Source: a virus. From it: DNA of 46,260 nt. The stretch spans positions 1-46,260 of the IMG/VR virus record IMGVR_UViG_3300030104_004177; one strand, given 5' to 3'. The stretch's first letter is position 1, and each line of letters begins with the position of its first letter. Below the pieces are notes generated by a model. The model was not told the DNA's origin and did not search any database. It worked only from the letters and a program-made list of their open reading frames with translations. This document shows positions 3,399 through 26,863 of this stretch, piece after piece. The position numbers and the translations under genes are program-made.

Positions 3399-3440
3399 AA
3401 AAACAGTTCTTGACATATGATGTGACTTTTTGGTATAATT
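3399..3440 (+). promoter_or_regulatory. Consensus sigma70-type promoter, copy 1
   Basis: The TerL-HNH gap contains TTGACA (3410-3415) and TATAAT (3434-3439) separated by 18 bases, with an extended -10 TG (3431-3432) and an A-tract upstream of -35. Transcription should start near 3446, about 13 bases before the next ATG. The whole 42-base element recurs at 26822-26863, with identical flanks AAAAACAGTTCTTGACAT and TTTTTGGTATAATT and a diverged 10-base middle. It probably drives the head and tail genes. Confidence 0.85.
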
Positions 3441-3458
3441 CTAATTAAGAGTAGAAAT

Positions 3459-3833
3459 ATGAAATTAAAAAGAGATTTAGTTAAATATGTACGAGATAAA
3501 GCTAAATCTAAATATAAGAAACAAAGTAGTTGTTATATTTGCGAAAGCAATATAGACTTAGATTTTCATCATTACTACGGACTGACCGAACTACTAGAAA
3601 CTTGGTTGAAAAAACAAAATTATATTATAGAGAATGAGCAAGACATACTAGCACTTCGAAAGTCCTTTATTGATGATAATTGGGAAAAGGTGTACGAATA
3701 TACTGTAACCCTCTGCCATAAGCATCATTTACGATTACACTCAATTTATGGAAAACGACCCAAATTGATTACAGCAGAGAAACAAAAACGTTGGGTCGAG
3801 AAGCAGAGAGACAAATATGGCATGGTACGATAG
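3459..3833 (+). CDS. HNH-type endonuclease-like protein
   Basis: This 124-residue protein has a zinc-binding HNH layout: CYICES (two Cys, about residues 25-28), FHHYYGL (about 36-42) and, after a helical insertion, VTLCHKHHLRLHSIYGKRP (about 85-103). HNH proteins beside terminase and portal genes are common in phages with HK97-type heads and can assist terminase cleavage; a homing nuclease is the alternative. It is the first gene after the promoter at 3399-3440. Its 3' end overlaps the portal start by 17 bases, which suggests an integrated rather than a recently inserted gene. Catalytic activity is inferred from motifs only. Confidence 0.8.
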   Translation: MKLKRDLVKYVRDKAKSKYKKQSSCYICESNIDLDFHHYYGLTELLETWLKKQNYIIENEQDILALRKSFIDDNWEKVYEYTVTLCHKHHLRLHSIYGKRPKLITAEKQKRWVEKQRDKYGMVR

Positions 3834-5022
3834 ATTTTTAGGAAGAAGCGATGAAAAGCTGAATCCTTCACAATATGTTATTTCGAGAAACGAAGGGTTA
3901 ACTGTAGACTCACGCGAAATAGTTACAAATTATCGTAATGCGTACGAACAACTAGAAATTGTCAATAGAGCAGTTAATATGATCGTTGATGATGTTTCCG
4001 AAATACCTTTTTCAGTTGGGGAAAAAATAACTGGAACAAATACTATACTAAAACAAATCCGCAGATCAAAAGTTAACTTACTTTTAAATGTAGAACCAAA
4101 TCCTTTTCAGGATGTCAGTACTTTTAAAAGAAACTTAATTATTGATTTAATGATTGATGGTAACATATTTATATACTTTGATGGTACTCATATGTACCAC
4201 TTACCAGCAAATAAAGTTACTATTTATACTGATGATGTTAACTATGTAGAAAAATATACATATGATAACAGCATAGACTATTCAGTTAACGAAATAATAC
4301 ACATAAAAGAGAATAGTTTTAACTCCATTTACAGAGGAACACCAAGACTAAAACCTGCATTTAGAACTATGCAGTTACTTAGCAACATGAGAAGTTTTCA
4401 AGATACCTTCTTTAAAAATGGCGCAGTTCCAGGTTTAGTACTTAAATCGCCAAACACTCTTTCTGAAAAAATTAAAGAAAGAATGTTACAAGCATGGAGC
4501 ATGAGATACAATCCGACAACAGGAGGTAGAAGACCTCTTATACTTGACGGAGGATTAGAAGTAGATAATCTAACAAATGTTAATTTTAAAGAACTTGATT
4601 TTCAAAGTTCAATTACAGCAAACGAAAAAATTATACTAGAAGCCATGGGAATACCACCTATCTTAATGGATGGTGGAAACAACGCAAACATAAGACCCAA
4701 TCACAGACTGTACTATCTTGAAACTGTCTTACCAATCGTAAGAAAGATGGGATATGCATTAGAACGATACTTTGGGTTCTCACTATCTGAGGATGTAACA
4801 GGAATACCTGCTTTACAACCAGAACTGAGAGACCAAGCAGCTTATTATGCAACACTTGTTAATACTGGAATTATAAGTCCAAATGAAGCAAGAGAAGCAA
4901 TAGGCAAAGAACCTGTAGAAGGATTCGACGATCCTAGAGTACCGCAAAATATTGCGGGCTCAGCCGTTAATCCCGAAGAGGGAGGTAGACCCCAACAGGC
5001 TGCCCCAAGCGAAGAGGAATAA
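3817..5022 (+). CDS. Portal protein (HK97-type family)
   Basis: The 401-residue product forms the dodecameric ring at the head vertex through which DNA enters and leaves. It shows the order typical of the family: an N-terminal segment with NRAVNMIVDDVSEIPFSVG (about residues 51-69), FKRNLIIDLMIDGNIFIYFD (about 104-123), YRGTPRLKPAFRTMQ, a FKNGAVPGLVLKSP segment, ILEAMGIPPILM (about 273-284), NHRLYYLETVLPI and a Pro/Glu-rich C-terminus after NPNEAR-like ISPNEAREAIG. The start at 3817 has a GAGAG site just upstream inside the HNH gene. Length fits the family. Confidence 0.93.
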   Translation: MAWYDRFLGRSDEKLNPSQYVISRNEGLTVDSREIVTNYRNAYEQLEIVNRAVNMIVDDVSEIPFSVGEKITGTNTILKQIRRSKVNLLLNVEPNPFQDVSTFKRNLIIDLMIDGNIFIYFDGTHMYHLPANKVTIYTDDVNYVEKYTYDNSIDYSVNEIIHIKENSFNSIYRGTPRLKPAFRTMQLLSNMRSFQDTFFKNGAVPGLVLKSPNTLSEKIKERMLQAWSMRYNPTTGGRRPLILDGGLEVDNLTNVNFKELDFQSSITANEKIILEAMGIPPILMDGGNNANIRPNHRLYYLETVLPIVRKMGYALERYFGFSLSEDVTGIPALQPELRDQAAYYATLVNTGIISPNEAREAIGKEPVEGFDDPRVPQNIAGSAVNPEEGGRPQQAAPSEEE

Positions 5023-5026
5023 ATAA

Positions 5027-5293
5027 ATGACAAAAAATATGATGGCAAAAGCATTATCCGACTGGTTTGTAGAACAAGGAGTCGAATCAATGGATTTACC
5101 TACTTACAAAAGTTATGGTTCTGAAGTTCCTGTTAAAGACTATATGCTCAGACGAGCATTTGGGTCTTGGAAACGAGTACTCTCAGCCATGAAGAAAAGG
5201 CATCCAGTTGCTGTAGTTGAAGAAGCTCCAGCACCTACTCCCGCACCAAAGGCTCCCAAAGCCAAGAAAGCGGAGAAGAAAGATGTCAAATAA
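5027..5293 (+). CDS. Small protein between portal and protease, 88 aa
   Basis: The 88-residue protein has a compact N-terminal part (LSDWFVEQGVESMDLPTYKS, then VKDYMLRRAFGSWKRVLSAM) and a low-complexity Ala/Pro/Lys tail. The RRxFGSWKRxLxxM segment resembles short helix-turn-helix-like repeats seen near homing endonucleases, and I have seen similar small proteins at this place in marine phages. A GAGGAA site precedes ATG 5027; an in-frame ATG three codons on is an alternative. The gene overlaps the protease-capsid gene by 11 bases. Function is not known; DNA binding or a head-assembly role are guesses. Confidence 0.72.
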   Translation: MTKNMMAKALSDWFVEQGVESMDLPTYKSYGSEVPVKDYMLRRAFGSWKRVLSAMKKRHPVAVVEEAPAPTPAPKAPKAKKAEKKDVK

Positions 5294-7340
5294 AATTTAT
5301 CATTGGACTAGCACTTTTAAATCACTAGGCGAAAACGAAGATGGTGGTGTAGATATTAAAGGATCTGCTAGTACTAATGCTCTTGATAGAGCAGGCGACA
5401 TAATCGAAGCTGATGCTTGGGCAAAAGGTGGATTGGAAAACTATAAAGGTAATCCAATTATTTTGTTCAATCATAATTATGACAAACCGATTGGTCGAGC
5501 AAAAGATTTAAAAGTTACAGACAACGGCTTAGAAATATCTGCAAAGATTTCTAAAGCTGCTGGTGATGTAACACAACTAATTAAAGACGGTGTCCTTGGA
5601 GCTTTTTCTGTCGGTTTCAAAGTCAAGGACGCTGATTACATGACTGAAACTGATGGATATAAAATAAAGGACGCGGAGCTTTTTGAAGTTTCTGTTGTAT
5701 CAATACCTTGCAACCAAGGGGCAACTTTTGGACTAAGCAAGTCATTTGATTCTATGGAAGAATACAACAAGTACAAGCATACTTTTTATACGGCTAACTT
5801 AAACGATTCAGCAGATGCTGTTGAAGTTGAGCAGCCAAGTACGGCGAAAGCCAAAGAAATGGAGACAAATATGTCAAAAGAAAAACAATCTCCTGAGAGC
5901 AACCCAGAGTTTAATCTTGAGTCATTTGCTGCAGAAGCTGCTGAAAAAGCAGTTGCTCAGTATGCAATGAAACAAGCAGAACTTAAAGCTGCTGAACAGA
6001 AGGCTGCAGAAGAAGCTGCTCAAAAAGCAACTGAAGAAGCTGAAGTTCAAAAAGCCTCCGAGGAAGCAAAACAGGAAGAGCAAAAAACTGTAATCCAAGC
6101 TGGATTAACAGGTGCTGAAAAATTAATGTCTGACGTTGAGTCCAGAGTGAAAGAAGACTACACTAACTTAGAGAGTGTTGTTAAATCACTTGAAGCACAA
6201 CTTGCTGAGAAGTCTGAAGAAATCATGAATATTCGTGAGTCTAAAAGACAGTTCTCTGACAGACAAGGTAACAACGGCGATTGGAAGAAATCCTTCGAGC
6301 AAGACATTGCAGATGCTAAATTTGCTGGTCTAGCTACTGGAAAAGGATGGGAAACTCCAATGGCAAAATCTTTGATGGAAAAAGTTAATCAACATTCAGG
6401 TGTTGAAGTTTCCTCTGCTGATTTTGAACAAGTTGTTTCAACAAATATCGAAAGAGATATCGAAAACGAATTAGTATTGGCTCCTCTATTTAGAGAAATC
6501 CCAATGACTTCTGCGAATATGATTATCCCAATCTTACCAGATGCAGGTTATGCAGAATTTACTTCTAGCCAAGCTGCTTCAGGTTCATCTCCTTATGGTA
6601 ACTTAGAAACCAGAGGCGATACTTATGGTTCACCTTATGCTGGTGTTACTATGACTGAAAGAACTCTTTCAACTAAGAAACTTATTTCTCAATCATTCTT
6701 AGGAAATGAAACAGAAGAAGATGCAATTTTACCAATTCTTCCTTTAATTAGAGAGTCTATGGTAAGATCACACGCTAGAGGTATCGAGAATGCTCTACTA
6801 GCTGGTGACGATGCTGATGGTGTATACGGAACAAGTGGAGCTGCTTTTGAAGGGCTTCTACACTTAGCAAGAAATGACAGTGATTTTACACAGTCATCTA
6901 CTGCTTTCGCTTCTGACACTGTTACAGCTGCAGAACTTCTTTCAATGAGAAAAAATATGGGTAAATATGGTGTTAACCCAGCAGACGTAGTTTACATTGT
7001 TTCACAAAGAACATACTTCGAACTACTAGAAGATGCTGAATTCCAAGATGCTAATTTAGTAGGCGACATGGCTACTAAACTAAGTGGTGAAATCGGACAA
7101 GTATTCGGATCAAGAGTACTATTATGTGATGAGTTCGCTACTCCAGCAGTATCTAAATTCGCAGCTATTGCTGTTAACCCTAGAAACTATGTATTACCTC
7201 GACTCAGAGGTGTTACTGTAGAATCTGATTATCAGGTTGCAGAGCAAAGAAGAGTACTAGTTGCTTCACAAAGAATTGGCTTCAGCGATTTAATCGATGG
7301 TGTTACTTCTAAATGGGGACACATGTACAAAGCTAGCTAA
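5283..7340 (+). CDS. Prohead protease fused to major capsid protein
   Basis: A single 685-residue frame joins two normally separate proteins. Residues about 1-165 match the HK97-type prohead protease, with catalytic candidates His64 (in FNHNYDKPIG) and Ser109 (GAFSVGFKV), and an ELFEVSVVSIP block at 132-142. Residues about 210-330 are Ala/Glu/Lys-rich coiled coil resembling a scaffolding (delta) domain. The rest has the HK97-type capsid pattern (LAPLFREIPMTSANMIIPIL, later GVTVESDYQVAEQRRVL). I start at ATG 5283, preceded by GGAGAAGAA; the frame is open further upstream to 5217 but that part overlaps the previous gene and has no capsid-like content. An in-frame ATG at 5871 has its own ribosome binding site and could give a separate 489-residue capsid precursor. 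A hairpin terminator follows. Confidence 0.93.
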   Translation: MSNKIYHWTSTFKSLGENEDGGVDIKGSASTNALDRAGDIIEADAWAKGGLENYKGNPIILFNHNYDKPIGRAKDLKVTDNGLEISAKISKAAGDVTQLIKDGVLGAFSVGFKVKDADYMTETDGYKIKDAELFEVSVVSIPCNQGATFGLSKSFDSMEEYNKYKHTFYTANLNDSADAVEVEQPSTAKAKEMETNMSKEKQSPESNPEFNLESFAAEAAEKAVAQYAMKQAELKAAEQKAAEEAAQKATEEAEVQKASEEAKQEEQKTVIQAGLTGAEKLMSDVESRVKEDYTNLESVVKSLEAQLAEKSEEIMNIRESKRQFSDRQGNNGDWKKSFEQDIADAKFAGLATGKGWETPMAKSLMEKVNQHSGVEVSSADFEQVVSTNIERDIENELVLAPLFREIPMTSANMIIPILPDAGYAEFTSSQAASGSSPYGNLETRGDTYGSPYAGVTMTERTLSTKKLISQSFLGNETEEDAILPILPLIRESMVRSHARGIENALLAGDDADGVYGTSGAAFEGLLHLARNDSDFTQSSTAFASDTVTAAELLSMRKNMGKYGVNPADVVYIVSQRTYFELLEDAEFQDANLVGDMATKLSGEIGQVFGSRVLLCDEFATPAVSKFAAIAVNPRNYVLPRLRGVTVESDYQVAEQRRVLVASQRIGFSDLIDGVTSKWGHMYKAS
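5861..5873 (+). promoter_or_regulatory. Internal ribosome binding site and start for capsid-only product
   Basis: GGAGA (5861-5865) lies five bases before an in-frame ATG (5871) inside the protease-capsid gene, exactly at the junction between the protease domain and the coiled-coil part (residue 197, MSKEKQSPESN). Another in-frame ATG lies at 5859. Initiation here would make a 489-residue capsid precursor without protease, which would explain how far more capsid than protease could be produced from one frame. Use of this start is inferred from the sequence. Confidence 0.65.
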
Positions 7341-7360
7341 TATACGCTTAGACAGGATTC

Positions 7361-7390
7361 GTGGGGCGGCCTTAATCGCCCCACACTTTT
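7361..7390 (+). terminator. Terminator-like hairpin after capsid gene
   Basis: A perfect 8-bp GC-rich stem, GTGGGGCG (7361-7368) with CGCCCCAC (7377-7384), encloses an 8-base loop and is followed by ACTTTT. The T-run is short, so termination may be partial, which would lower expression of downstream genes relative to capsid or protect the capsid mRNA end. It lies between the capsid stop (7340) and the next ATG (7395). Confidence 0.75.
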
Positions 7391-7394
7391 AATT

Positions 7395-8006
7395 ATGGCA
7401 AATTTAATAACATTACAACAGTATAAGGACTTCGCAGGAATCACAGGGGTGACTGAAGATGCCAAAATTAATGTTATAGTGCCAGCCATAAGTCAAGCAG
7501 TAAAAACTTACTGCGGCACGTCATTTGTTGATTTTTTCTCAACAGATAAAACAGAGTTTTTTGATATTCATGACGATTTTACAAATGCTATTTTAGTGGA
7601 TGAAAGCCCACTTGTCAGCGTCTCTCTGGTAGCAGAAAGAACAGGACAAGATGATTCATATACAACTTTAATAACTGGTAACTCAGATTCTAGCGGTAAG
7701 TACGAATACGTAGTAGACCTAGAACGAGATACTATTTTTAGAACTACTGCAACTGCAGATAAAGCTTTTCCAAAAGGTAGAGCAGCAGTGAAAGTAGTAT
7801 ATAGATCAGGTTATTCTTCAACACCCGAAGATTTAAAACTGGCATGTTTTGATTTAGTAAAATATTATTTGAAAGATGAAAGAAAAGAAAGACTTGCAAT
7901 AGCAGGAGCGTCGATACAAAATAATATATCGACAAGCCTCAAGGAAAACATAGGATTCCCAGACCATATTAAAAGGATACTAGATTTCTATAAAGTGCAC
8001 AAATAA
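7395..8006 (+). CDS. Head-tail connector (gp6-like adaptor)
   Basis: The 203-residue product begins LITLQQYKDFAGITG and has AISQAVKTYCGTSF (about residues 32-45), a central beta region, VKVVYRSGYSSTPEDLKLAC (about 133-152) and a helical LVKYYLKDERKER end. This layout is typical of the head-tail connector (HK97 gp6-like) proteins that dock on the portal. It follows the capsid gene, where such a gene is expected. No ribosome binding site is visible between the hairpin terminator and ATG 7395, which is odd. It is followed directly by the next gene with no spacer. Confidence 0.85.
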   Translation: MANLITLQQYKDFAGITGVTEDAKINVIVPAISQAVKTYCGTSFVDFFSTDKTEFFDIHDDFTNAILVDESPLVSVSLVAERTGQDDSYTTLITGNSDSSGKYEYVVDLERDTIFRTTATADKAFPKGRAAVKVVYRSGYSSTPEDLKLACFDLVKYYLKDERKERLAIAGASIQNNISTSLKENIGFPDHIKRILDFYKVHK

Positions 8007-9608
8007 ATGGCACTACAAAATTTAAATAGAGATTTACAAACAATTTTTGATCAAATTGTAGGTAAGAAAGGTAAAGGCAAGTATCGTGCTTTCATGAACT
8101 TTTATAGTCATGAATTTAAAGTTACAAAAAAAGATGCTATTGAGCAATTAAAAGCAATTACAGCTAGACCAGAGTCTGCTCAAGGAGTTGGCCCTACAGG
8201 CAGTGAGTGGCAAGTTGGTCAAAAAGTTTTTGATACTAATGATGCAGAGATACAAAAAGCAATAGAAGATACCGCAAAAGTTTTAATAGCGGAATATAAA
8301 AACAGTATAACTTCAAAAAATAGAGATATCAAAAATAAAAGTCAAGTAAAAGTCGGAGATTTTTATTTAAAAAGTTCTTCGGCTGATGAAGTAGTACTAG
8401 CAGTTGACTTAGACTCACCTGGAGAAGGTAATGCTTATAACGCTATTAAAAGCGTAAAAACAAAAGTTTCTAAAAAAGTTTTTGAAACTCCTGAGACACC
8501 AGGTAATAAATTATTTAAACTATTATTATCTGCGGGTAGAGTAAGAAGTTATAATTCAGGAAAAACATATGAAGCTTCTGCTTTATATGATATTGGGCAT
8601 AGAGAAGCTATTGGGCAATACAAGGCAGGAGCATTACAAGCAGGTATAAAATCTGTAACAGATAGAGGCGGATATTACGACAATAATGGAACTGAAGAAG
8701 CTGTCGATATTGGTGATGTAACTAGCGCAGTTGGAGCAAAGTTTGAAGAACTAGCAACAGTTGCAAATGGAATTACAATTATTGGAGTTGATGAATTTAT
8801 AGTTTTTCAAGGTACTAAAATGGTACAAAATCCAGAAAGTACTTTTAAAGTTTTAACTGATTTAGAAACTCAATATCAAAATCAGGTTCAAGATATTCAA
8901 GCAAAAGGAGTAGGAACAGGGGGTGGAGCCCAAGAACAGTCTAAAAAGTTATTAGAGATAACAGAAGAAATTCAAAACATTGTTCAAGAAGCTATAGCAA
9001 AAACTCCAAAAGAAAATGTTTCAAGACTGGGTTCAGATTCATTTCTTGATGCATTAGCAAAAGGAATAGTACTTAGCCCGGAAATGAAAAGACTGTATAA
9101 AAAAGGGGCAGCTCATAATTTAACTAAGTGGAAAGGAGCATTAAGAAATAGAAAAAATAGATCGAAACCCTTAAAAGATACAAAATCAAAAAGTGGCGTA
9201 GTAAGACATAATGTACTTGCTGGAGGGTTAGCAGCTTCTTCCAAAAGAATAAAAGCAGACAAACCAGTAGAAAAAGGAGCAGGAACAGAAAACAAAGACT
9301 ACAGAGACGCTTTAGTAGCTAGAGCTTTCGTAAACAGCAGATTAACCAAACAAGTACAAAGAAACATGGGTAGGCCTGCGTTAGAAAATGTAAGTGGAAG
9401 ATTTGCAAGTTCAGCAACTGTTGTTAATGCAAATATAGTAGGAGATGGGTTGCATATGGACTATACATACCAACAAGATCCTTATAGAGTTTTTGAACGT
9501 GGAGGACAGTATTCTACAGGGTATGACCCAAGACCTCTTATAGAAAGAAGTATAAGAGAACTAGCAGCAGCTAAACTAGAGACAAAATTTACACTTAGGA
9601 GAGTATAA
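8007..9608 (+). CDS. Putative neck or tail-completion protein, 533 aa
   Basis: This 533-residue protein lies between the connector and tail terminator, where neck proteins are encoded. Features are a charged helical N-terminal region, an ALYDIGHREAIGQYKAG segment (about residues 192-208), a Lys/Ser-rich linker near residues 370-400, and a C-terminal domain with NVSGRFASSATVVN, LHMDYTYQQDPYRVFERGG and DPRPLIERSIRELAAAKLE. I recall similar C-termini in marine siphovirus neck or tail-completion proteins. It is long for that role and the N-terminal part is not recognised. The start directly follows the previous stop and lacks an obvious ribosome binding site. Confidence 0.7.
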   Translation: MALQNLNRDLQTIFDQIVGKKGKGKYRAFMNFYSHEFKVTKKDAIEQLKAITARPESAQGVGPTGSEWQVGQKVFDTNDAEIQKAIEDTAKVLIAEYKNSITSKNRDIKNKSQVKVGDFYLKSSSADEVVLAVDLDSPGEGNAYNAIKSVKTKVSKKVFETPETPGNKLFKLLLSAGRVRSYNSGKTYEASALYDIGHREAIGQYKAGALQAGIKSVTDRGGYYDNNGTEEAVDIGDVTSAVGAKFEELATVANGITIIGVDEFIVFQGTKMVQNPESTFKVLTDLETQYQNQVQDIQAKGVGTGGGAQEQSKKLLEITEEIQNIVQEAIAKTPKENVSRLGSDSFLDALAKGIVLSPEMKRLYKKGAAHNLTKWKGALRNRKNRSKPLKDTKSKSGVVRHNVLAGGLAASSKRIKADKPVEKGAGTENKDYRDALVARAFVNSRLTKQVQRNMGRPALENVSGRFASSATVVNANIVGDGLHMDYTYQQDPYRVFERGGQYSTGYDPRPLIERSIRELAAAKLETKFTLRRV

Positions 9609-10054
9609 TGACAAGCAGAACTAAAAGGAAAAAAGTAGTAGATGCTCTCGTTGATAAGTTAAAATTAATTAATGGGCAGCATCCCTTTAATTCAAATGTA
9701 TCCAGTAATGTAACTGGAAGATTAAAATTTTTAGATGAAATAGAACAATATCCAGCAGTTTGCGTAGTAGCAGGCGATGAATTTAGAGAATACCAACCAG
9801 GTGGCTTTAAATGGAGATTGTTAGATTTAACAGTAAGAGCATATATTAATGATAATAACGATGCTCAAGAAACATTAGCATTATTAATGGAAGATATCGA
9901 AAGAGTCATCGATGATAATGATAATTTAGTGTACGACGACACAGTCGATCCAAGTGAAAAGTCAACTTCTTTAACAATAGGAAGTATAAGTACTGATGAG
10001 GGAGTTATTGCTCCTTTAGGAATTGGAGAAATGACAGTCAGAGTACGATATTAG
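9608..10054 (+). CDS. Tail terminator-like protein
   Basis: The 148-residue protein has an N-terminal helix (RKKVVDALVDKLKLI), a strand region FLDEIEQYPAVCVVAGDEFR (about residues 43-62), RLLDLTVRAYINDN, a helix ETLALLMEDIERVIDD and a C-terminal strand IGEMTVRVRY. That alpha/beta layout, with YPAVCVxxG and a closing MTVxVRY strand, is typical of the tail terminator family that caps the tail tube and joins head to tail. It starts on the last base of the previous stop (TAATG). Position just before the tail tube genes agrees. Confidence 0.8.
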   Translation: MTSRTKRKKVVDALVDKLKLINGQHPFNSNVSSNVTGRLKFLDEIEQYPAVCVVAGDEFREYQPGGFKWRLLDLTVRAYINDNNDAQETLALLMEDIERVIDDNDNLVYDDTVDPSEKSTSLTIGSISTDEGVIAPLGIGEMTVRVRY

Positions 10055-10119
10055 GAAACAGGTAAGGCACATAAAAATGTAGCCGCACCCCTTTCCATTA
10101 TAAAAACGGAGAAAGCAAA

Positions 10120-11700
10120 ATGGCTTTAAATTTATCGAGAAATACGAAAGTATTTGTCAGCTCTGTAAATGGAGTACACGCAAGTGGTGGGTCAGTTAAA
10201 ACTGTCGATGCAATCGCAGGAACAAACTCTGGTCATGCCGTAGGCGATGTAATCACTTTTGGAACAACAAATGGGTCTGGAACAGGCTTCAAATGTATAG
10301 TAGCTGCTGTTAGTAGCGGTGCTGTTACTGAAGTCTATATTCCTAACAACTTTCGAGGTACTGGGTATGCAGATAACAACACTGTTACTTCAACAGCATC
10401 TACTGGAAGTGGGGCTACTGGACTTATTTTAACCATAAATGGTGTTACAAGTACAACAACAACTGACAACTCAAGAACAGCAACAGGATTATTTAAGGGT
10501 AATGGTACTCATGACGGAAATGCTGCTGCTAAGAAAATCAACACTTTTAGAATCGGTGTTTTAGATGGATATAGTTTTTCACAAGGAAGTGAGAGCACAG
10601 ACGTTACAATTAACGAAGCTGGTGCTACACCCAACCGTGGTTCAAAACGATTCAATGACTCTTTACCACCTGCAGAATGGTCTTTCGGAACATATGTAAG
10701 ACCTTTCAAGCATGGTTCACAGAGTTGGAGAGAAAGTGGCGATATGGATATGGTAGAAAATATTCTTTGGGCTTCTTTAGCAGGTAAAGATATCTGTGAC
10801 GGCTCCGAAACAGGTGATTCTAATTCAGCAGTTACTTTAACTAGCTCATCAGGAATCGTAGATTTCGCAGGATCAGAACATCACGAATTATTGAAACTTT
10901 CAATATATTTCGCTCTTGAAAATACAACTTATCGTTTGAATGAAGCACAGGTAAATCAGTGTGAGATTGACTTCTCAATTGATGGTATTGCTCAGTTAAC
11001 ATGGTCTGGAAATGCAACAACAATTGACCAAGTTTCAACAGCAATTGAAGATCCTTCAAAAACACTTCATGCAAAACCAAGTGGAACAGACACTTCAGTT
11101 ACAACTGCTACCTATGTAGAAGGTTATAATTATGCTGATTCAACTGGACCAGATGATGCTGATTATTTAAGAAATAAATTGTCAACATTAACACTTGCTG
11201 CAGCCGCTCAAGGTGGTGGTGCAACTTCTGGTGGGTTAGATGCAAGAACATATGACATTAATATTACTGGTGGTTCTATTACTATCGCTAATAATGTCAC
11301 ATATGTAACACCTGAAACATTAGGTATTATTGACAAACCGATTGGATCTTTTACAGGATCTAGACAGATTACTGGTAACTTAACATGTTACTTGGATACA
11401 AAATCAAATGGTTCTAACCAATTACTTACAGACTTAGCTGGAGCAACCGACTTAGTTACTAACGTATTTGATATGAGCTTATTCATGGGAGGCGCTTCAA
11501 CCGCTACACCTGTAGTTGAATTTGATATTCCAAAAGCACATATGACTGTACCAACGCTCGAAACCGCTGATCTGATCTCTACTTCAATAGAGTTTGCAGC
11601 TCATGGATCAGACCTATTAACAGGCGACGAAATGACTGTAGTCTATAAAGGTTTAACAACCCATTCAGACGCTCAGTACGGCACAGACTATACTGTATAA
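10120..11700 (+). CDS. Major tail tube protein (large, 526 aa)
   Basis: This 526-residue protein probably builds the tail tube. Residues about 20-115 form a Gly/Thr/Ser-rich insert with GSGTGFKCIV and FRGTGYADNNTVT segments, a beta-type module often added to phage surface proteins. The core contains NEAGATPNRGSKRF, PPAEWSFGTYVRP, and near the end IIDKPIGSFTGSRQITGNL and VFDMSLFMGG, a beta pattern typical of tube proteins. A 65-base leader (10055-10119) separates it from the previous gene; it has a GGAG site but no clear promoter. The next gene encodes a smaller relative. The length is about twice that of common tube proteins. Confidence 0.8.
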   Translation: MALNLSRNTKVFVSSVNGVHASGGSVKTVDAIAGTNSGHAVGDVITFGTTNGSGTGFKCIVAAVSSGAVTEVYIPNNFRGTGYADNNTVTSTASTGSGATGLILTINGVTSTTTTDNSRTATGLFKGNGTHDGNAAAKKINTFRIGVLDGYSFSQGSESTDVTINEAGATPNRGSKRFNDSLPPAEWSFGTYVRPFKHGSQSWRESGDMDMVENILWASLAGKDICDGSETGDSNSAVTLTSSSGIVDFAGSEHHELLKLSIYFALENTTYRLNEAQVNQCEIDFSIDGIAQLTWSGNATTIDQVSTAIEDPSKTLHAKPSGTDTSVTTATYVEGYNYADSTGPDDADYLRNKLSTLTLAAAAQGGGATSGGLDARTYDINITGGSITIANNVTYVTPETLGIIDKPIGSFTGSRQITGNLTCYLDTKSNGSNQLLTDLAGATDLVTNVFDMSLFMGGASTATPVVEFDIPKAHMTVPTLETADLISTSIEFAAHGSDLLTGDEMTVVYKGLTTHSDAQYGTDYTV

Positions 11701-11702
11701 CA

Positions 11703-18320: not shown

Positions 18321-19033
18321 TGGCTTTTAGTGCATTTGCAAATAGATTACCAGATCCTAATTTTAAAATAACAGAAGCGGGAGAAAATAGTAATAGTGGA
18401 ACAGCTGGGCCAGGCTTTGCTTCGGTTAAATTTACTGCAAATCAACCTGTTTCATTTTCAAGAACAAATAGTGGTCGTGTAACTACAAGAGCAATAGTTG
18501 GTCATCACTGGAGTATAGGTATTACATATAACCCTATGACTCGGGATGAGTTTGAACCAATTTACAATTTTTTACTTGAAAGAAGAGGCCGACTTAAACC
18601 ATTTTTTGTTGCCTTACCACAACATGTCACAACTAGAACTACAACAAGTGGAACAATTTCAGTTCAGGGAAGTATAACTGCAGGAGACTCAAATTTTTTA
18701 ATAGATGGAATGGGAAGTGTCACTGGTGGATTACGTCCTGGGGATATGTTTAATTTCTCAGATTCTGGAAATTCCAATCATCATAAAATTTATAAAGTAG
18801 TAAGAGTCGCAGACTCAACGAATAAACTATCTTCTGATTCTGCATTAAATACTACTGATGAAAGAAGATTATATGTTGTTCCACCAGTGGAAAAAGATGT
18901 AACAGACAATTCAACAATTACATATGCAAGTCCACTTTTTCGAGTAGTACAAAAATCAGATGTTCAAGAATATTCACTTGGAACAAATAATTTGTATCAA
19001 TTTAGCCTCAACTTAGAGGAGGCGCAAGTCTAA
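18320..19033 (+). CDS. Distal or minor tail protein, 237 aa
   Basis: This 237-residue beta-rich protein sits between tape measure and tip protein, the position of distal or minor tail proteins. It has GHHWSIGITYNPMTRDEFEP (about residues 56-75), IYNFLLERRGRLKPFFVALP (about 76-95), and a C-terminal FRVVQKSDVQEYSLG and LYQFSLNLEEAQ. The pattern of a beta strand, a helix RxEFEPIYNFLxxRRG, and a FxVxLP strand is common to minor tail proteins that form the ring under the tube. Start overlaps the previous stop by one base, and its stop overlaps the next start by one base. Confidence 0.75.
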   Translation: MAFSAFANRLPDPNFKITEAGENSNSGTAGPGFASVKFTANQPVSFSRTNSGRVTTRAIVGHHWSIGITYNPMTRDEFEPIYNFLLERRGRLKPFFVALPQHVTTRTTTSGTISVQGSITAGDSNFLIDGMGSVTGGLRPGDMFNFSDSGNSNHHKIYKVVRVADSTNKLSSDSALNTTDERRLYVVPPVEKDVTDNSTITYASPLFRVVQKSDVQEYSLGTNNLYQFSLNLEEAQV

Positions 19034-22000
19034 TGACCAAACGTAGTGTAAATACTTCTATAGAAGAAGTTCTTGTTAGTAATGAGTCATTTGAATATGC
19101 TCACCTTATAAAATTTGAACGCCCTTTCAAAAAAGATCCAGGCAGCCCAGATTTTCGTACTAATGCGAATCGTTATGCTTATTTTACGGATGCAAGTCGT
19201 GATATAAGTTTCAATGATGGAAGTACAGATCATGACGATCAAGCAAACGGCTCACAAATATATAGAGCAAACAGAATAAAATCGGTTGGTACTTACTCAG
19301 AAACAACATCACCAAGAGCAACAAATATGGCTCTTACCCTTTCAGGAGATCATCTTGGAACTTCTATATCAATATCAGGAGATTTTGGAAGTTCTGCATT
19401 TACAGTTGACACTACATTCCATGACGATAGAGACGAAACAGATTTAGTAGATTTTGGTTTTCGTGAAGGCGATAAAATAAAAATTACTAAAAATAGTGGT
19501 ACTTTTTCTACAGGAGTAACTAATGTTACCTATATTATTACAGGTTTTTCAAACTCAAATAAAACTATGGCACTTGCCGTTACAGGAAACGATTCAGATG
19601 ATACAACAACCTTTCCTACAGACACAAGCGTAAGCGTAACAATCTCTTTAGAGTCAGAAGAAATCAAAGGAGTGCTTGCAGATAAAGCAACTCTAGACTT
19701 AGCTAATCCAGCTTTTCTCAATCGAGAAGTATTCATTCATAAAGTATTTATAGATCCAGAAACTGGAGATATCCATGGTAACTCTAGTGTTATCATATTC
19801 AAAGGAATTGTTGCAGGATGTTCTATAGATGAAGGACCTACTAAAAGCAATGTAAAATGGAATCTTTCAAGTCATTGGGGAGATTGGGCTCAAGTCGGAG
19901 GGCGATTAACAACAGACGATACTCATAGAGCATTAGACGGAAACGGAGCACCACAAGAAGATTTAACTATAAAACCAGAGTATTCAACTGATTTAGGATT
20001 TATACATTCAGAAACTACATTAAGTGCAATCGCAAACTACAAAACTTATGAAACGGAAATAGTTACCAAATTTAAAAAACGAGGAGGTATTGCGGGACTG
20101 CTTGGTCAACAAAAAGCAACTCAAACAGAAGTTCAAAAAGAAATTGATAATGAAGTAGACTTAACTATAGGACTGCAAGGAAAGTATTTACCTGTAGTTT
20201 ATGGAGTTCAAAGAATTCCTGGTATACCTGTGTTTGCTGATACAGATGCTAGTGATTCAAAAATAGTCTATGTTGCAGATGCACTTTGTGAAGGTGAAAT
20301 ACATGGACTCTATAATTTATATATTGATGGAGTTCCTTTAATATGCACAGATGCAAACGATGCAGATGTACGAGGAGCATCAAGTACTAGTACAGATGCG
20401 GATGGAAACTTAAAGAAAGATAGTGCTCAGTTGCAATGTTATGGTAGAGCAGATAAAGGAAATACTATAGGAGGAGCAGCAGATACTGCAATTGCTAGTG
20501 CATTAAGTAATTTTGTAGCTAATTCTCCACTTACTCAATTATTACTAGAAGCAGTAGAAGAAGGAAGTGATCCGAACGAAATAAAAGCATTATTTAGAGC
20601 GCAACAACAACAGGCAGCTTTTTTCTTTGCAAATGTATCGCAAAATAATATTCCTAGTATAACTGCAACTACAAATGATGCAAAAGGATTACAACACTCA
20701 GAACATGGAAGCATATCACACCCCCATAATATGTCCTTTACATTTTATAAAGGTTCAAATTCACAATTAGCTTCAAATATGCTTGTAACTCAGGCACAAG
20801 GAACAGGATTTAAAAGACAAAATGACTACTATGACTCTAGTGTGCCATATTGGAGCCCCGATCACAGACTATTAGATACTGCTTATATGGTAAATGCTTT
20901 TGTTATTTCTGCAGATTCAACAGAAATACCAGAATTAGAATATGTTGTTCGAGGGAGAGTAATAGAATGTTTCAATTTTGATAATTCTTATGTTCCAGAT
21001 ACAGTAATCGGTAGTAGCGATGCACACACAAATTTTAAAGAAGGAGATACAGTTACTGTTGAAAGAAGTACAGATGGAACTTCCTACTCTACTACTAATG
21101 TAGAAGGCAACTCCTCTGATACAAGTTTCAGAATATTACATAAATATTTACTAGCAGATAATGAGGGAAACAGTCATTACAGATTTATATTAGATCAAAC
21201 TCCAGACTTAGATGCAGTTAATGGATTACCTACAAAAACTTATTTACGATTAAAGCAAACAGGTCAAAATAACTATTGGCATATGAGAACTTTTAATCAT
21301 AGAAATATTACAAATCAGAGTTTTGTTTTACATGCAAAATCTCCTACAGCAGTTAGCGTAAATGGAAGTAATGAGATACAGTTTACTTTTGATGGGAATA
21401 GTGGAGCAGATGCTGCAAACTTAAAAGCAGGATATGATACAGAACTAGCTACAAATGGACCAGCAGGAAAAGCATTATATAGTTTTTTAACAAATGACTG
21501 CACAGCTCTTAGTAATTTAACAGATGCTCAAGTTGTTGGAACTTGGAGTGGAAATGTTCTTACTCTTAAAAATATAAAATACGATTCTGCTAAAAATAAT
21601 AATGTAGCAATAGGAAGTGTTCCAAATGTTCTCAATATAGATGTATATAAGACTAGAAACTTCTTTATGGGAGGAGGCGGACCTTTTACTAGTTTCACTA
21701 ATGACGCAGACCTTGCAGGAGCTACAATTACTCTAAATCATACTGGAGAAAGTAGAAAAATTGCGAGTTATTCAGGAAGTGAAAGAAGAATAGAAATAGA
21801 AAGTCCTTTCAAAACTTTGCGAGAAGCAGACTATGATGCAGGAATCATAAAGTTTGATATTTCTGGTACGCAAGGAGATAGAAGACCAGTAACAAATACA
21901 GCATTACAATTATTAGACTACATGAGAGATCCTCGATATGGAAAAAATCTTGATGTAAATAATGATATAGATTTAGCTTCTTTTATATCTTCTGCAAAAC

Positions 22001-24735
22001 TATGCGAAGTCAGAGGCACACTTACTCTTGGCACTAGAACATCAGGACTAACAGTAGGAGATTACTATAAATTAGCAGATGGAAGTGGCAACCATTTAGG
22101 TTCAGCTCGAGTAAAAAGCACTTCTACAAATCAAGTAACTTTTGATAATTTATCTGGTAAATTTTTGCGACTATATGGTACTCATATAGCATATGCTGAT
22201 GATGAATATATTATAACAGATGAGGGAAATCTTTATCAAAAATCAGGTGCAGGTTATTTATCTTCCAAACCCACTCATACTAGTGGAACAAGCGGTGGAG
22301 TAACTTATATTAGTCCTACAGACGTAACTATAAGTTCAGTAGTTAACAAAATATCTACATTTAATCTTACAAAAGAATCAGGATCAGGGCCTAGTACTCT
22401 TACTATTGATGCCTCAGGAGGTCCTGCAGCTATTGCTCCTACTTATTCTTTGTATGATTCTGACTTCATAAAGTATTGGAGATATATGGGATGGGAACAT
22501 CATAAACAATGTTTTGTAACTCGACATCAAACAAACTTTATTATAGATACTTCTAAATCAATATTTGAAAACATGAATGTATTCTTATCTCACATGAATG
22601 GAATACTATCATATGAAGGAGGCAAATATGTGCTAGATATAGAAACTCAAGCAACTGCACCAACATCAAGTACTACTTTTAATTCAGTAAATTATGATTG
22701 GAATGTAAATCCAGAATATATTGATAATACAGATATCATAGGCAGTATTTCCTTAACAGATAACTCGGCTCGTAATGCAAAGAATACAATAAAAGCAAGT
22801 ATTACAGACCCTGCAAATAATTGGGCATCTCGAAGTGTATCATTCTTTAATAGTAACTTTTTAGAGGCAGATAGAAAAGTTGTAAAAACAGGAAACTTTA
22901 ATTACACAGGAATAACAAACTACTACAATGCTAGAATCGGGACAGAAAAAGAATTAATTAGTTCAAGATTTAGCAGAGAAATAAGTTTTAAGGTAGGACC
23001 AAAAGGATTATTACTAAAAGCAGGACAAGTTATTTCTCTTACTTACGAACCCTTTGGATTTTCTAGTAAATTATTTAGAATAAGCAATTTAAATTTTAAT
23101 GCTGATTGCTCAGTTAACATAAAAGCAGTAGAGTATGATGATAGTCAGTATGTAATTAGTGCAGTAAGAGCAAATGAATTAAGACAAGAAGCAGCAACAC
23201 AACAACAAAGTTTAGCCGCCCCTGGTGCACCAAGCTCTTTAGCGGCTACAACAACCAAGCCTGGAAGTGTAATACTAACATGGAACAATCCTACAGACTT
23301 TATTGATGAAAGTGATGATATTGAGGTATGGGCTTCAGACGATAACAATAGATCAAATGCATCACTATTAACAGTATTAGACAATGAAACAAACTTTACT
23401 TATACAACAGCAGGAGCAGGAACAAAGTTTTATTGGATTAGAACACGACGAATAACAAATCAATTAAAAGGCAAAAAACTATTAACATCAGCATATCATC
23501 CAAGTAGTGCAACAGGCGGAGTAACAGGTACATCAAAAATACTTTCACCAAATCTTAGTTTTGATATTACAAACATAATTTTAAATTTTGACAGTGGAGG
23601 TACTCTTGATCCTTCAGGCTCAGGACAAGATACAACTTTAAATATTATAAAACAAAATCTAACAGGAACTCCAACAATTCAAATTTTAGATGCAAGTGAC
23701 CAAGGAACACAGAGTGATGTTTTATTCACAAATGGGTCTGCAAGTATTACAGCAAATGCAGCAACTATTGATGCTTCTAGCGCTAGTTCAAGTTCTACTG
23801 CAAAAATTATAAAAGCAAGTTTAACAGAATCAGGAGAAACTTTTAATGCGTTTGCTACTTTAAGTATTATTCAACAAGGAGCAGCTGGAGCTGGTAAACA
23901 AAAGATTGTTTCTTTTGTATATCATCAAGCAAGTTCTGCAAATCAACCAGCTACTCCATCAGCAACAAGTTATAGTATTGCTAATAATAGCTTTACTGGA
24001 CTAACAAGTGGTTGGGCAACAACTCCACCAACTTTTGCAGCTGGAAATACAAATAAGTATTGGTATTCATATTTTACAGCAGAAGAAGATACAGCAGGTG
24101 GAGGATCAGCTTCAGGTAGTAATCTTGTATTCCAAGCTTCACAACAAGGTATAGGATTTAGTGGGCTTGTAACATTTACAAGTAGCAATGTAATTGATGA
24201 TGGTGGCGGCAATACTTTATCATTTGGCTCAGGCGGAACAACAACGATTGACGGAGGTAATATTACAACTGGAACTGTAGCGGCTGCTCGTGTAAGTATT
24301 ACAGGTAAAAATATATCCCTATTAAATAATAATAGTGGTTTTACAACTTTTGGAGCATCAGATGTTCAAAATGCAATAGCAAATAATGTAACAACCATTG
24401 ATGGTGGAAAAATAACAACAGGAACTATAGCAGCTGCAAGAATAGACGTAGGTAATATTACAATAGGCAATCTTGGTGGGGCAAGTAGTTTTAAAGGAGC
24501 ATTATCTAATTTAAATAATCCAGGTTCTGCTATAACTCCTACTGATGATACAGCAGCAAATGCTGCTCAATCTACTGCAGATAGCAAAACAACAGCAAGT
24601 GCAGCAGCTTCTGCGGCAAATTCAGCAGCAAAAACAGCAGGGTCTATTGGTGGTTGGTCATTAAGTAGCACTCAAATAACTTCAGGAAATATTACATTAG
24701 ATAATTCAACCTCACAAATTATAATATCGGATTAA
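19033..24735 (+). CDS. Tail tip host-specificity protein (J-like), 1900 aa
   Basis: The 1900-residue protein is probably the central tail tip. The N-terminal 450 residues contain IKGVLADKATLDLANPAF, a KYLPVVYGVQRIPGIPVFAD block (about 381-400) and DALCEGEIHGLYNLYIDGVP, as in J-type tip proteins. Residues about 1200-1380 include a region with SSRFSREISFKVGPKGLLLK. A fibronectin type III-like domain lies at about 1396-1475 (PGAPSSLAATTT, then GSVILTWNNPTDF, KFYWIRTRRI). The C-terminal part is fibre-like with two related copies of DGGxITTGTxAAARx (near nucleotides 24250 and 24406) and ends in GGWSLSSTQITSGNITLDN. It is followed by three small paralogous proteins and probably anchors them. Confidence 0.88.
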   Translation: MTKRSVNTSIEEVLVSNESFEYAHLIKFERPFKKDPGSPDFRTNANRYAYFTDASRDISFNDGSTDHDDQANGSQIYRANRIKSVGTYSETTSPRATNMALTLSGDHLGTSISISGDFGSSAFTVDTTFHDDRDETDLVDFGFREGDKIKITKNSGTFSTGVTNVTYIITGFSNSNKTMALAVTGNDSDDTTTFPTDTSVSVTISLESEEIKGVLADKATLDLANPAFLNREVFIHKVFIDPETGDIHGNSSVIIFKGIVAGCSIDEGPTKSNVKWNLSSHWGDWAQVGGRLTTDDTHRALDGNGAPQEDLTIKPEYSTDLGFIHSETTLSAIANYKTYETEIVTKFKKRGGIAGLLGQQKATQTEVQKEIDNEVDLTIGLQGKYLPVVYGVQRIPGIPVFADTDASDSKIVYVADALCEGEIHGLYNLYIDGVPLICTDANDADVRGASSTSTDADGNLKKDSAQLQCYGRADKGNTIGGAADTAIASALSNFVANSPLTQLLLEAVEEGSDPNEIKALFRAQQQQAAFFFANVSQNNIPSITATTNDAKGLQHSEHGSISHPHNMSFTFYKGSNSQLASNMLVTQAQGTGFKRQNDYYDSSVPYWSPDHRLLDTAYMVNAFVISADSTEIPELEYVVRGRVIECFNFDNSYVPDTVIGSSDAHTNFKEGDTVTVERSTDGTSYSTTNVEGNSSDTSFRILHKYLLADNEGNSHYRFILDQTPDLDAVNGLPTKTYLRLKQTGQNNYWHMRTFNHRNITNQSFVLHAKSPTAVSVNGSNEIQFTFDGNSGADAANLKAGYDTELATNGPAGKALYSFLTNDCTALSNLTDAQVVGTWSGNVLTLKNIKYDSAKNNNVAIGSVPNVLNIDVYKTRNFFMGGGGPFTSFTNDADLAGATITLNHTGESRKIASYSGSERRIEIESPFKTLREADYDAGIIKFDISGTQGDRRPVTNTALQLLDYMRDPRYGKNLDVNNDIDLASFISSAKLCEVRGTLTLGTRTSGLTVGDYYKLADGSGNHLGSARVKSTSTNQVTFDNLSGKFLRLYGTHIAYADDEYIITDEGNLYQKSGAGYLSSKPTHTSGTSGGVTYISPTDVTISSVVNKISTFNLTKESGSGPSTLTIDASGGPAAIAPTYSLYDSDFIKYWRYMGWEHHKQCFVTRHQTNFIIDTSKSIFENMNVFLSHMNGILSYEGGKYVLDIETQATAPTSSTTFNSVNYDWNVNPEYIDNTDIIGSISLTDNSARNAKNTIKASITDPANNWASRSVSFFNSNFLEADRKVVKTGNFNYTGITNYYNARIGTEKELISSRFSREISFKVGPKGLLLKAGQVISLTYEPFGFSSKLFRISNLNFNADCSVNIKAVEYDDSQYVISAVRANELRQEAATQQQSLAAPGAPSSLAATTTKPGSVILTWNNPTDFIDESDDIEVWASDDNNRSNASLLTVLDNETNFTYTTAGAGTKFYWIRTRRITNQLKGKKLLTSAYHPSSATGGVTGTSKILSPNLSFDITNIILNFDSGGTLDPSGSGQDTTLNIIKQNLTGTPTIQILDASDQGTQSDVLFTNGSASITANAATIDASSASSSSTAKIIKASLTESGETFNAFATLSIIQQGAAGAGKQKIVSFVYHQASSANQPATPSATSYSIANNSFTGLTSGWATTPPTFAAGNTNKYWYSYFTAEEDTAGGGSASGSNLVFQASQQGIGFSGLVTFTSSNVIDDGGGNTLSFGSGGTTTIDGGNITTGTVAAARVSITGKNISLLNNNSGFTTFGASDVQNAIANNVTTIDGGKITTGTIAAARIDVGNITIGNLGGASSFKGALSNLNNPGSAITPTDDTAANAAQSTADSKTTASAAASAANSAAKTAGSIGGWSLSSTQITSGNITLDNSTSQIIISD

Positions 24736-24737
24736 TC

Positions 24738-25265
24738 ATGGCAAATAGAGTATTAATAGGAAATAGAACAAGTGGAGGATACGGATTATATGTTTCAAAA
24801 GCAAATAGTAATGTATTAACTTGCGACGACAAAGATTTATTATTTAGCAGTAACCAAAAAGTAAGTGGAGCTATGCCTGTATATGCAGGTGGATCACAGT
24901 CTTCTCTTTCAGGTGGATTAAACTTTTTAACTACAGGAAGCAAAGATGATCTAGGATATATTCCTTTAGTGATTGCAACTGAAAATGAAAACAGAGTATG
25001 GAACTGGGGAGCAAAGACATCAGGAGCAGCTGACATTCAATTAAATCAAAATAATGTATCAATGTTTACTTATACAAGCAGTACAATAACTCCTGCATTA
25101 TTAAGACCTTTTCCTGCAAATAATATTACAGGGATGGTAGAAACAAGAAGAACTTCAATATCCGACTATGGATCAAATACAGGGGGAACTCAGGCTTGTA
25201 CTGGACTAGAGTTTGTGGTATTAAAAATGCCATGTGCATTTGGGCATATGAGTGGATTTTATTAA
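24738..25265 (+). CDS. Tail-tip adhesin paralogue 1
   Basis: The 175-residue product starts MANRVLIGNRTSGGYGLYVS, a module shared with the two following genes. After it comes a divergent beta-rich body with LGYIPLVIATENENR, and an end FVVLKMPCAFGH that resembles the ends of the two relatives (VVFKKL, IIFKEP). Size and composition suggest a small fibre or tip protein; the conserved N-terminus probably docks onto a shared partner such as the tip protein encoded just upstream. It starts three bases after that gene. Function is inferred, and no known family is recognised. Confidence 0.75.
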   Translation: MANRVLIGNRTSGGYGLYVSKANSNVLTCDDKDLLFSSNQKVSGAMPVYAGGSQSSLSGGLNFLTTGSKDDLGYIPLVIATENENRVWNWGAKTSGAADIQLNQNNVSMFTYTSSTITPALLRPFPANNITGMVETRRTSISDYGSNTGGTQACTGLEFVVLKMPCAFGHMSGFY

Positions 25266-25711
25266 TGGCAAACAGAGTATTATTAGGAAATAGATCAACA
25301 GGAGGTTACGGACTATATGTGTCTGAATCTGGACAAAATGTGTTAAATTGCAGTAAAGATAAGTTATTATTTTATACAGATTCAGGAGAGACAGGAACTT
25401 CCTTTGTAACAAAAGGTATGCATCAAGCTGTACCTTTCTCAGGAGGAACAGGAAGCACTGCTCCAGTTACAAAAAATACAGTAAACTTAAGTAGCGCAAC
25501 TAGTGCAAGTTTAACATACCAAAACTTAGGAAATCAAAATTTTCTTTACACTGCAAAAAATTATCAACAAAATGCAAATTCAAGTAGTTTTGAGCAGGGC
25601 GCAAATTTTTCTTCAGTAGGAGCAACAGGAGCCACAATCAATAGACTAGGAACAGGTCAGTCTTATGATGTGGTAGTATTTAAAAAACTAAGCGGAAACG
25701 CATTATATTAA
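25265..25711 (+). CDS. Tail-tip adhesin paralogue 2
   Basis: I start this gene at ATG 25265, on the last base of the previous stop, because the product then begins MANRVLLGNRSTGGYGLYVS, matching its two neighbours; a longer frame from 25196 overlaps the previous gene with unrelated sequence. The 148-residue protein has a Gly/Ser/Thr-rich body (FSGGTGSTAPVTKNTVNLSS, then NYQQNANSSSFEQGANFSS) and ends SYDVVVFKKLSGNALY. It is the most divergent of the three in its body. It is probably a small adhesin or tip decoration with a conserved docking module; receptor and partner are unknown. Confidence 0.75.
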   Translation: MANRVLLGNRSTGGYGLYVSESGQNVLNCSKDKLLFYTDSGETGTSFVTKGMHQAVPFSGGTGSTAPVTKNTVNLSSATSASLTYQNLGNQNFLYTAKNYQQNANSSSFEQGANFSSVGATGATINRLGTGQSYDVVVFKKLSGNALY

Positions 25712-25713
25712 TT

Positions 25714-26196
25714 ATGGCAAATAGAATATTAGCAGGAAACAGATCAACAGGCGGATACGGACTCTATGTTTCAAGAACAGGAGAGGATGTTACGTCAACT
25801 ACAAACCCCATGGCTTTTGATTCAAGAGCAGCAAGTTCACCTGTAGTACATAGTGCAGGAGATGGTACAATAGCAGGTAGTACTAATTTGGGAAGTGCTA
25901 CAATTAATCATAACTTAGGGTATACACCTCTTTTTGCAGTAAGGTGGTGTACTCAAGATGAGCTAGACAGTAATAACAAAGCAACAAAAGTTTTTGATCC
26001 TCGATACAGTCATATGATTAGTATTACTGAACCTGAAGGAATTGAGACACTTGAACTTGTACCTTATGGAATTTTTGTAACTATGGATACAACTAAGTTA
26101 GTTATAAGAAAATTCATGAAAGCAGGTAGTGATGATGTAAATTACGCATACATAATTTTTAAAGAGCCCGATTTCACAGGAGGACTGGGACTATGA
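25714..26196 (+). CDS. Tail-tip adhesin paralogue 3
   Basis: The 160-residue product begins MANRILAGNRSTGGYGLYVS, the third copy of the module. The body carries TINHNLGYTPLFAVRW (compare DLGYIPLVIATE in the first copy), SHMISITEPEGIETLELVPY and ends NYAYIIFKEPDFTGGLGL. It therefore keeps more of the first copy's fold than the second does. Stop overlaps the next gene by four bases (ATGA). It is probably a small tail-tip or receptor-contact protein. Confidence 0.75.
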   Translation: MANRILAGNRSTGGYGLYVSRTGEDVTSTTNPMAFDSRAASSPVVHSAGDGTIAGSTNLGSATINHNLGYTPLFAVRWCTQDELDSNNKATKVFDPRYSHMISITEPEGIETLELVPYGIFVTMDTTKLVIRKFMKAGSDDVNYAYIIFKEPDFTGGLGL

Positions 26197-26615
26197 TATA
26201 TCATATATTTTTTGACAGTAATAAAGACATAGCGTGGTCATGCACTGCGCCAGTTACTGATGCAATAAAAACAGAGCAAAAATCAACACACAATTATGAC
26301 TATTTACAGTATGATTGTGATCATGTGCCTAATGGAGAAGACTGGTACATTAATTCAGACGGAGACGCAGTTGTAGAAAAAACAGTATTTAACCCCACAT
26401 TTAGTACATCTACAGCAAGTCTGGATAGTGTTATAAATGTAACAGGGTTACCTGCAGGAACAGAAGTATTTTTAGATGGCACATCAGCAGGAACAATGTC
26501 AGATACAACTTTAACATTAACAGCACAAGAAGCAGGTAGTTTTGAGGTAGAGTTTAAAAAAGATAAATATAAAGACTACTATAAATTAATAACAATATCG
26601 AGGTACTCATCATGA
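26193..26615 (+). CDS. Tail accessory protein with PEGA/Ig-like C-terminus, 140 aa
   Basis: The 140-residue product has an N-terminal part with MIYHIFFDSNKDIAWSC and an aromatic-rich YDYLQYDCDHVPNGEDWYIN segment, then a short beta domain (about residues 80-140) with INVTGLPAGTEVFLDG and SFEVEFKKDKYKDYYKLITI that resembles a PEGA or Ig-like module. It overlaps the previous gene by four bases and the next by four bases, so the three are coupled. Small tail-associated proteins of this type usually precede the 60-residue gene that follows. The exact role is unknown. Confidence 0.7.
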   Translation: MIYHIFFDSNKDIAWSCTAPVTDAIKTEQKSTHNYDYLQYDCDHVPNGEDWYINSDGDAVVEKTVFNPTFSTSTASLDSVINVTGLPAGTEVFLDGTSAGTMSDTTLTLTAQEAGSFEVEFKKDKYKDYYKLITISRYSS

Positions 26616-26800
26616 ATGTAAATTTAGCAAAAAGCGGAGCAACCACACAAACAAAAAGAGCGTCTTACTATGAAACTTTGACAGACCAGTTAGATAAGCT
26701 ATATCACGATATAGATAATGGCAAACTAGGAGAGGACGCAAAAACGTCTACTTTTTATCTAGGTAGGAAAGCAGTAAAGGATAAATATCCCAAAGGATAA
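26612..26800 (+). CDS. Small conserved tail-associated protein, 62 aa
   Basis: The 62-residue protein has the recurring phage pattern of an aromatic start (RASYYETLTDQLDKLYHDI), a short acidic linker DNGKLGEDAKTS, and a C-terminal YLGRKAVKDKYPKG. The xxYxxxxDQLDxLYHDIxxGKL ... AVKDKYPK pattern is common in small proteins of phage tail-fibre operons, whose exact function I do not know. It overlaps the previous gene by four bases (ATGA). An 86-base gap with the second promoter copy follows, so this is the last gene of the assembly unit. Confidence 0.78.
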   Translation: MNVNLAKSGATTQTKRASYYETLTDQLDKLYHDIDNGKLGEDAKTSTFYLGRKAVKDKYPKG

Positions 26801-26821
26801 AGGGTAGCGACTTCACATTCC

Positions 26822-26863
26822 AAAAACAGTTCTTGACATCACTGGTAAATTTTTGGTATAATT
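26822..26863 (+). promoter_or_regulatory. Consensus sigma70-type promoter, copy 2
   Basis: TTGACA (26833-26838) and TATAAT (26857-26862) are 18 bases apart with TG just before the -10. Flanks AAAAACAGTTCTTGACAT and TTTTTGGTATAATT are identical to those of the promoter at 3399-3440; the 10 middle bases differ at seven positions. Transcription should begin near 26869, just before the GGAGG site of the gene at 26887. It probably drives the adhesin unit. Confidence 0.85.

Follow-up and report, generated by a model that had tools for sequence, protein, structure and literature searches.

The viral record IMGVR_UViG_3300030104_004177 is classed as linear and is 46,260 bases long, and the whole of it, here called the window, was analyzed. 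It contains two closely similar promoter elements of 42 bases, both on the plus strand, at positions 3399–3440 and 26822–26863. The outer blocks of 18 bases (AAAAACAGTTCTTGACAT) and 14 bases (TTTTTGGTATAATT) are identical between them, and the 10-base centers, ATGATGTGAC in promoter 1 and CACTGGTAAA in promoter 2, agree at 3 of 10 positions. This is exactly as given in a preliminary description of the window, which had also taken both elements for consensus promoters of the host RNA polymerase; both are full-consensus sigma70 promoters, with perfect hexamers and a −35/−10 spacing of 18 bases. The DNA flanking the 42 bases shows no likeness between the two sites.

Promoter 1 begins with the upstream box AAAAACAGTTC (3399–3409), followed by the −35 hexamer TTGACA (3410–3415), a variable, lineage-dependent part of the spacer (3416–3426; mean major-allele frequency, 0.71), the spacer end TTTTTGG (3427–3433), the −10 hexamer TATAAT (3434–3439), and a T at position 3440. 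In promoter 2 the same box occupies 26822–26832, the −35 hexamer 26833–26838, TTTTTGG 26850–26856, the −10 hexamer 26857–26862, and the T position 26863. Passages of PMC4390567 define the UP element as an A-tract upstream of the −35 and the extended −10 as a TGn ahead of the −10. Both window elements combine the hexamers with an extended −10 (TGG, 3431–3433 and 26854–26856), and, judged by its position, the AAAAA of the box appears to sit at the right distance for the proximal UP-element subsite, where alpha would make contact. A hairpin, CTGT-AAAAA-ACAG, spotted by eye at site 1 of the window, is not retained in relatives and was discarded.

When the window was searched for TTGACA-N18-TATAAT with up to one mismatch, three matches were found, compared with 0.86 expected from dinucleotide shuffles, and the only exact matches are sites 1 and 2. 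The 46,260-base record contains the spacer-plus-core pattern at these two sites only. The likeness of the two promoters is not due to chance.

A long structural block lies behind each promoter, with open reading frames (ORFs) at 3459–26800 for site 1 and 26887–45428 for site 2. The proposal that each promoter opens a structural unit holds, and relatives have conserved promoters at the same two positions. All genes of both units are on the plus strand. The first gene of unit 1 (3459–3833) is a T5.153 homologue (39% identity; phrog_3497, unknown function), followed by the portal protein gene (3817–5022) and, at 5217–26800, by genes for capsid/protease, adaptor, tail terminator, major tail protein, chaperone, tape measure, distal tail, and central tail fiber, together with small genes. 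Unit 2 starts with a gene that resembles phrog_1084 and L-shaped tail-fiber assembly proteins (26887–27222) and continues with tail-fiber, spike, and adhesin-like genes (27222–45428). The portal-capsid-tail and adhesin blocks are thus as first described, but the label "HNH" given to the gene at 3459–3833 is weakened, as that gene has no Pfam match and is a homologue of T5.153. A strong terminator-like hairpin (9 pairs, 7 of them G-C) is found on the plus strand at 7361–7384, directly behind the capsid gene and ahead of the head-tail adaptor, and in the T5 record a putative terminator is annotated directly 3' of the major head gene; together they hint that unit 1 contains an attenuator that has been conserved.

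The window holds the structural region only; phage families are matched by its genes for TerL, portal, capsid, tail, and tape measure. TerL belongs to phrog_2, and the portal protein, a member of phrog_12, shares about 40% identity with the portals of cultured T5-like phages, VspSw_1 and My1 among them. Homologues of D3, D5, D10, D11, and D15 are present in relatives, and a 104-kb relative (G001) has PHROG matches to ligase, DnaB, polymerase, and SbcCD. The phage to which this structural region belongs is uncultured and T5-like. The T5 pre-early genes A1, A2, and dmp gave no tblastn match at 1e-3 in the searched records, which are fragments, and the phage is therefore called T5-like rather than a member of the genus. 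Phages of the T5 type (Demerecviridae) have large identical terminal repeats; in G001, the opening 857 bases and the closing 863 bases agree at 78% identity only. Each end of this record (L224 141–734 and L229 3426–4025) carries a related ORF, of a family that matches phrog_624, DNA binding protein, behind the same promoter; the ends may be diverged end repeats or paralogues at contig ends.

The exact 41-base pattern, with 30 fixed bases, is found in at least 119 other viral contig stretches. Among the 119 matches listed, the downstream sequence assigns 117 to site 1, the terL/portal junction, and 2 (L022 and L062) to site 2, the tail-fiber junction. Because selection by motif was to be avoided, loci were also fetched by the portal protein: the best 80 of 516 were taken and 78 examined, with 2 that start inside the portal gene and 4 with too little upstream DNA left out. 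A promoter with no more than two mismatches in the 12 consensus bases is present 405–410 bases before the portal start in 74 of 74 portal loci. In the alignment of site 1 (73 rows), AAAAA is conserved at 100%, the −35 at 95%, the −10 at 99%, and the next base at 99%. Conservation is highest at the A-tract, the −35, TTTTTG, the −10, and the base that follows, whereas the center, at 71%, is near the level of portal third codon positions (68%). The late sites of close relatives of the window have an 18-base spacer, not 17. Conservation beyond the hexamers, which the preliminary description had pointed out, is therefore borne out for the flanks, but the TGG that closes TTTTTGG is an ordinary extended −10, a motif also present at some early-region promoters.

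Searching by gene instead of by motif shows that the window pair belongs to a genome-wide consensus sigma70 class, AAAAAYAnTTC-TTGACW-N17/18-TATAAT. In 80 loci found by polymerase sequence (1,027,305 bases) there are 182 core matches, all with a 17-base spacer; the same search on reversed sequence gave 2. Across 128 unique sites in these loci, the 11 bases ahead of the −35, AAAAATAnTTC, hardly vary, and the box also precedes replication genes (ligase, primase, and polymerase). In G001 such promoters occur throughout; the structural region has few of them, and several precede replication genes. Two other relatives, G020 (L576–L580) and G021 (L581–L583), contain both the replication and the structural regions, on opposite strands, and would be suited as reference genomes of the group. 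A promoter type with the −10 TAAAAT is barely above its control (13 matches compared with 8 over 3,312,858 bases). At TAAAAT sites in L232 (G018:1–20000), 1588–3748, and L228 (G001:80001–100000), 6016–8337, palindromes such as AAAATTTGTTTATAAACAAAGTTT follow and GTCACAAAAC often lies ahead; these sites are perhaps a third, pre-early promoter class.

Unique core matches were grouped by the downstream protein, which gave 231 sites in 34 families, 18 of them with a single member. Four families are late: the portal junction (37 sites), a small-membrane-protein-like family upstream of terL (17), phrog_1084 (13), and the terminase small subunit (4). Twelve families with two or more members belong to the early region, and six of these have a functional name (ligase A, ligase B, primase, polymerase, and two DNA-binding families), the polymerase family having been identified by its own sequence; the remaining six were assigned by region. 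The base directly after the −10 is T at 70 and C at 1 of the 71 sites of the late families, including all 13 promoters of the family of promoter 2. In the early-region families it is A at 128 and G at 11 of 139 sites, a purine in 139 of 139, and at replication operons the discriminator is mostly ATA. The base after the −10, and not the shared part, separates late from early-region promoters. With labels assigned at random, a split of 4 late and 12 early-region families would have a probability of 1 in 1,820.

Since the T/purine mark had been noticed in the first data, it was then tested on new loci: 45 new unique sites in 46 divergent polymerase loci and 42 new unique sites in 80 terL loci, with L451 (the G004 record) and the two 26%-identity loci L494 and L495 excluded. 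The polymerase loci have A at 43 and G at 2 of 45 sites, and the 39 boxed sites of the terL loci have T at 38 and A at 1. At the homologues of window promoters 1 and 2, G001 has C and T, and G020 and G021 each have T and T; the replication-gene promoters of all three have A. Two other features were considered as late marks. The extended −10 fails as the sole mark, as it is found at 66 of 71 late sites but also at 52 of 139 early-region sites, including 30 of 30 in one family. The 18-base spacer holds in part (39 late sites with 18 and 32 with 17; 1 early-region site with 18 and 138 with 17).

We think it likely that this uncultured T5-like phage has about four late-operon promoters, the window elements being two of them, which are read by the unaltered host sigma70-type RNA polymerase and share one grammar with the early promoters, the class difference lying downstream of the −10. 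Each window promoter would be maximal, with an A-tract at the proximal UP position, a consensus −35, an extended −10, and a consensus −10, and the two would be alike because all strong promoters of the phage group, early and late, keep the same grammar. The late structural operons would be set apart by T, and the replication operons by A or G. We infer that the host polymerase reads these promoters unaided and that the A-tract acts as an UP element. Passages of PMC7472727 report that all T5 promoter classes use the host sigma70 polymerase, that PG25 and PJ5 of T5 were validated as late promoters by primer extension, and that early and late T5 promoters differ chiefly in the discriminator. By analogy, it is probably the discriminator that determines timing in this group as well; a phage factor that targets the RNA polymerase or the start region may tell the classes apart there, shutting the early promoters and sparing the late ones, as proposed for T5. 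That the window promoters are late would follow from their gene content and from T5. We put forward more tentatively, as a possibility that is somewhat doubtful, that essentially a single base, T or purine directly after the shared consensus, is a temporal address, read by the host polymerase after its modification by the phage, or by a start-site repressor, so that replication operons are silenced and structural operons kept on.

Several observations weigh against this explanation. The portal-junction promoter of G001 has C rather than T, the terminase-small-subunit promoter of G020 has A, one boxed held-out site in L548 has A, and an A-type promoter lies at G021 12125, directly before a tape-measure match. 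T is absent in 5 of 53 unique core matches of the portal loci and the window, mostly unboxed ones. In T5 itself, the base after the −10 is A at the late promoter PG25 and G at PJ5, and the T rule thus fails there. T5.026, the T5 RNA polymerase-binding protein that acts at the discriminator, has no tblastn match in the searched records, where a diverged homologue is possible. The counts do not represent independent events, as many sites are orthologues; the mark was selected after the first data set had been viewed; and the labels "early" and "late" come from gene content or genome region.

A candidate, and only that, for the factor acting at the discriminator is the D5 homologue, an early-region gene product with helix-turn-helix motifs in tandem. 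The T5 record describes D5 as required for late transcription. Homologues are present in 54 records of the search set, with 42–50% identity to T5 D5, and 37 aligned homologues have a mean column identity of 84%. Several helix-turn-helix matches were obtained, including Sigma70_r4_2 above the cut-off, and the predicted structure consists of successive helical modules, although a fold search with the model returned no Protein Data Bank match with E ≤ 0.001.

These properties of D5 also bear on another explanation, in which every phage promoter is bound at its AAAAAYAnTTC box, next to the −35, by a phage DNA-binding protein such as the D5 homologue, so that the polymerase is drawn from host to phage promoters, the discriminator being secondary. 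The high conservation of D5, its helix-turn-helix matches, and the modeled helical modules would suit such a role, and the box is more uniform than an UP element requires, including an invariant final C and the TA before it. However, the D5 model lacks a confident structural match, and early promoters need to fire before any such protein exists. Moreover, the boxed core AAAAAYARTTCTTGACW-N17/18-TATAAT precedes genes of unrelated bacteria, mainly Clostridia, with at least 120 matches in at least 118 loci (L246–L363); among the matches listed, an ORF starts within 200 bases in 90 of the 105 that have enough downstream DNA. This suggests that the boxed core is a general strong promoter form suited to the ordinary polymerase, which would then seem sufficient, and we regard the DNA-binding protein as unlikely. 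Two bacterial genome-bin contigs have two boxed sites each, L253 at 4154 and 7496 (Halieaceae MED611) and L279 at 2808 and 3167 (Proteobacteria CPC29), possibly phage DNA binned with its host. Because the matches of the GTDB pattern scan are scattered and mostly clostridial single matches, with a few contigs carrying two or more sites, no host is inferred.

The preliminary description had instead suggested a late-specific regulator on the shared flanks, which would set a common timing for the two structural units. In keeping with this, neither flank differs between the two window sites, and relatives conserve them. However, the box is equally conserved at the replication-gene promoters of the polymerase loci and so cannot be a late-specific operator, and the TGn, as counted above, also occurs in the early region; such a regulator is very unlikely. 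Even less probable is a recent copying of one promoter by duplication or gene conversion, in which case the identity would reflect common origin and not selection. Although 32 of 42 bases within the window lie in two identical blocks, the centers and all outside DNA differ, both positions are filled in the divergent G001, G020, and G021, where the leaders are site-specific, and the two promoters of G007 differ in the box. A mobile promoter element that has spread to many places in phage genomes, which the 119 or more exact matches might bring to mind, can practically be dismissed, as those listed fall at one orthologous place or the other and 228 of the 231 unique core matches lie directly before genes, with an ORF start within 250 bases, rather than being scattered copies with no gene downstream.

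Strong host-type promoters are already known in T5-like phages. As far as our literature search shows, the fixed box with the TTGACW grammar of this uncultured group and the T/purine split are new; no paper on this promoter motif in uncultured T5-like phages was found in the open-licence PMC literature. Passages of PMC7472727 state that it is unknown how T5 switches from early to late with strong sigma70 promoters in both classes. A large natural promoter set that shares nearly everything but the discriminator and is split by gene class makes this question testable on a few bases. If the one-base temporal address is true, it would provide an answer, from a comparative system, to how the switch is made with only strong sigma70 promoters. 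The motif can also be used for operon annotation in an abundant uncultured phage group.

Like the window promoters, PG25 and PJ5 of T5 are strong host-sigma70 promoters that open or lie within the structural region, with an A-tract upstream and a TTGA-type −35, and among 46 annotated T5 promoters they match the window upstream box best (PJ5, 9 of 11; PG25, 8 of 11). In contrast to the window promoters, their spacers are 17 bases long, the sequences read contain no TGn, and a purine takes the place of the T; T5 has no annotated promoter at the terL/portal junction. T5 early promoters share with this group the A-tract, N17, TATAAT, and an AT-rich ATA-type discriminator, but their −35 is mostly TTGCTT or TTGCTA, whereas it is TTGACA or TTGACT here. 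The cultured T5-like Vibrio phage VspSw_1 (Pogseptimavirus), related through its portal protein, has 8 promoter-like sites of the T5 type, with the −35 TTGCTT/A, TTGCAT, or TTGACG, compared with 1 in the control, and zero TTGACA/T-N16-19-TATAAT sites. Sigma70 promoters with an UP element and an extended −10 likewise have an A-tract upstream of the −35 and TGn before the −10, but the group studied here has extra fixed bases (YA.TTC) between the A-tract and the −35. With the exceptions given above, the feature of T5-type temporal control, a difference between early and late discriminators, is present in this phage group.

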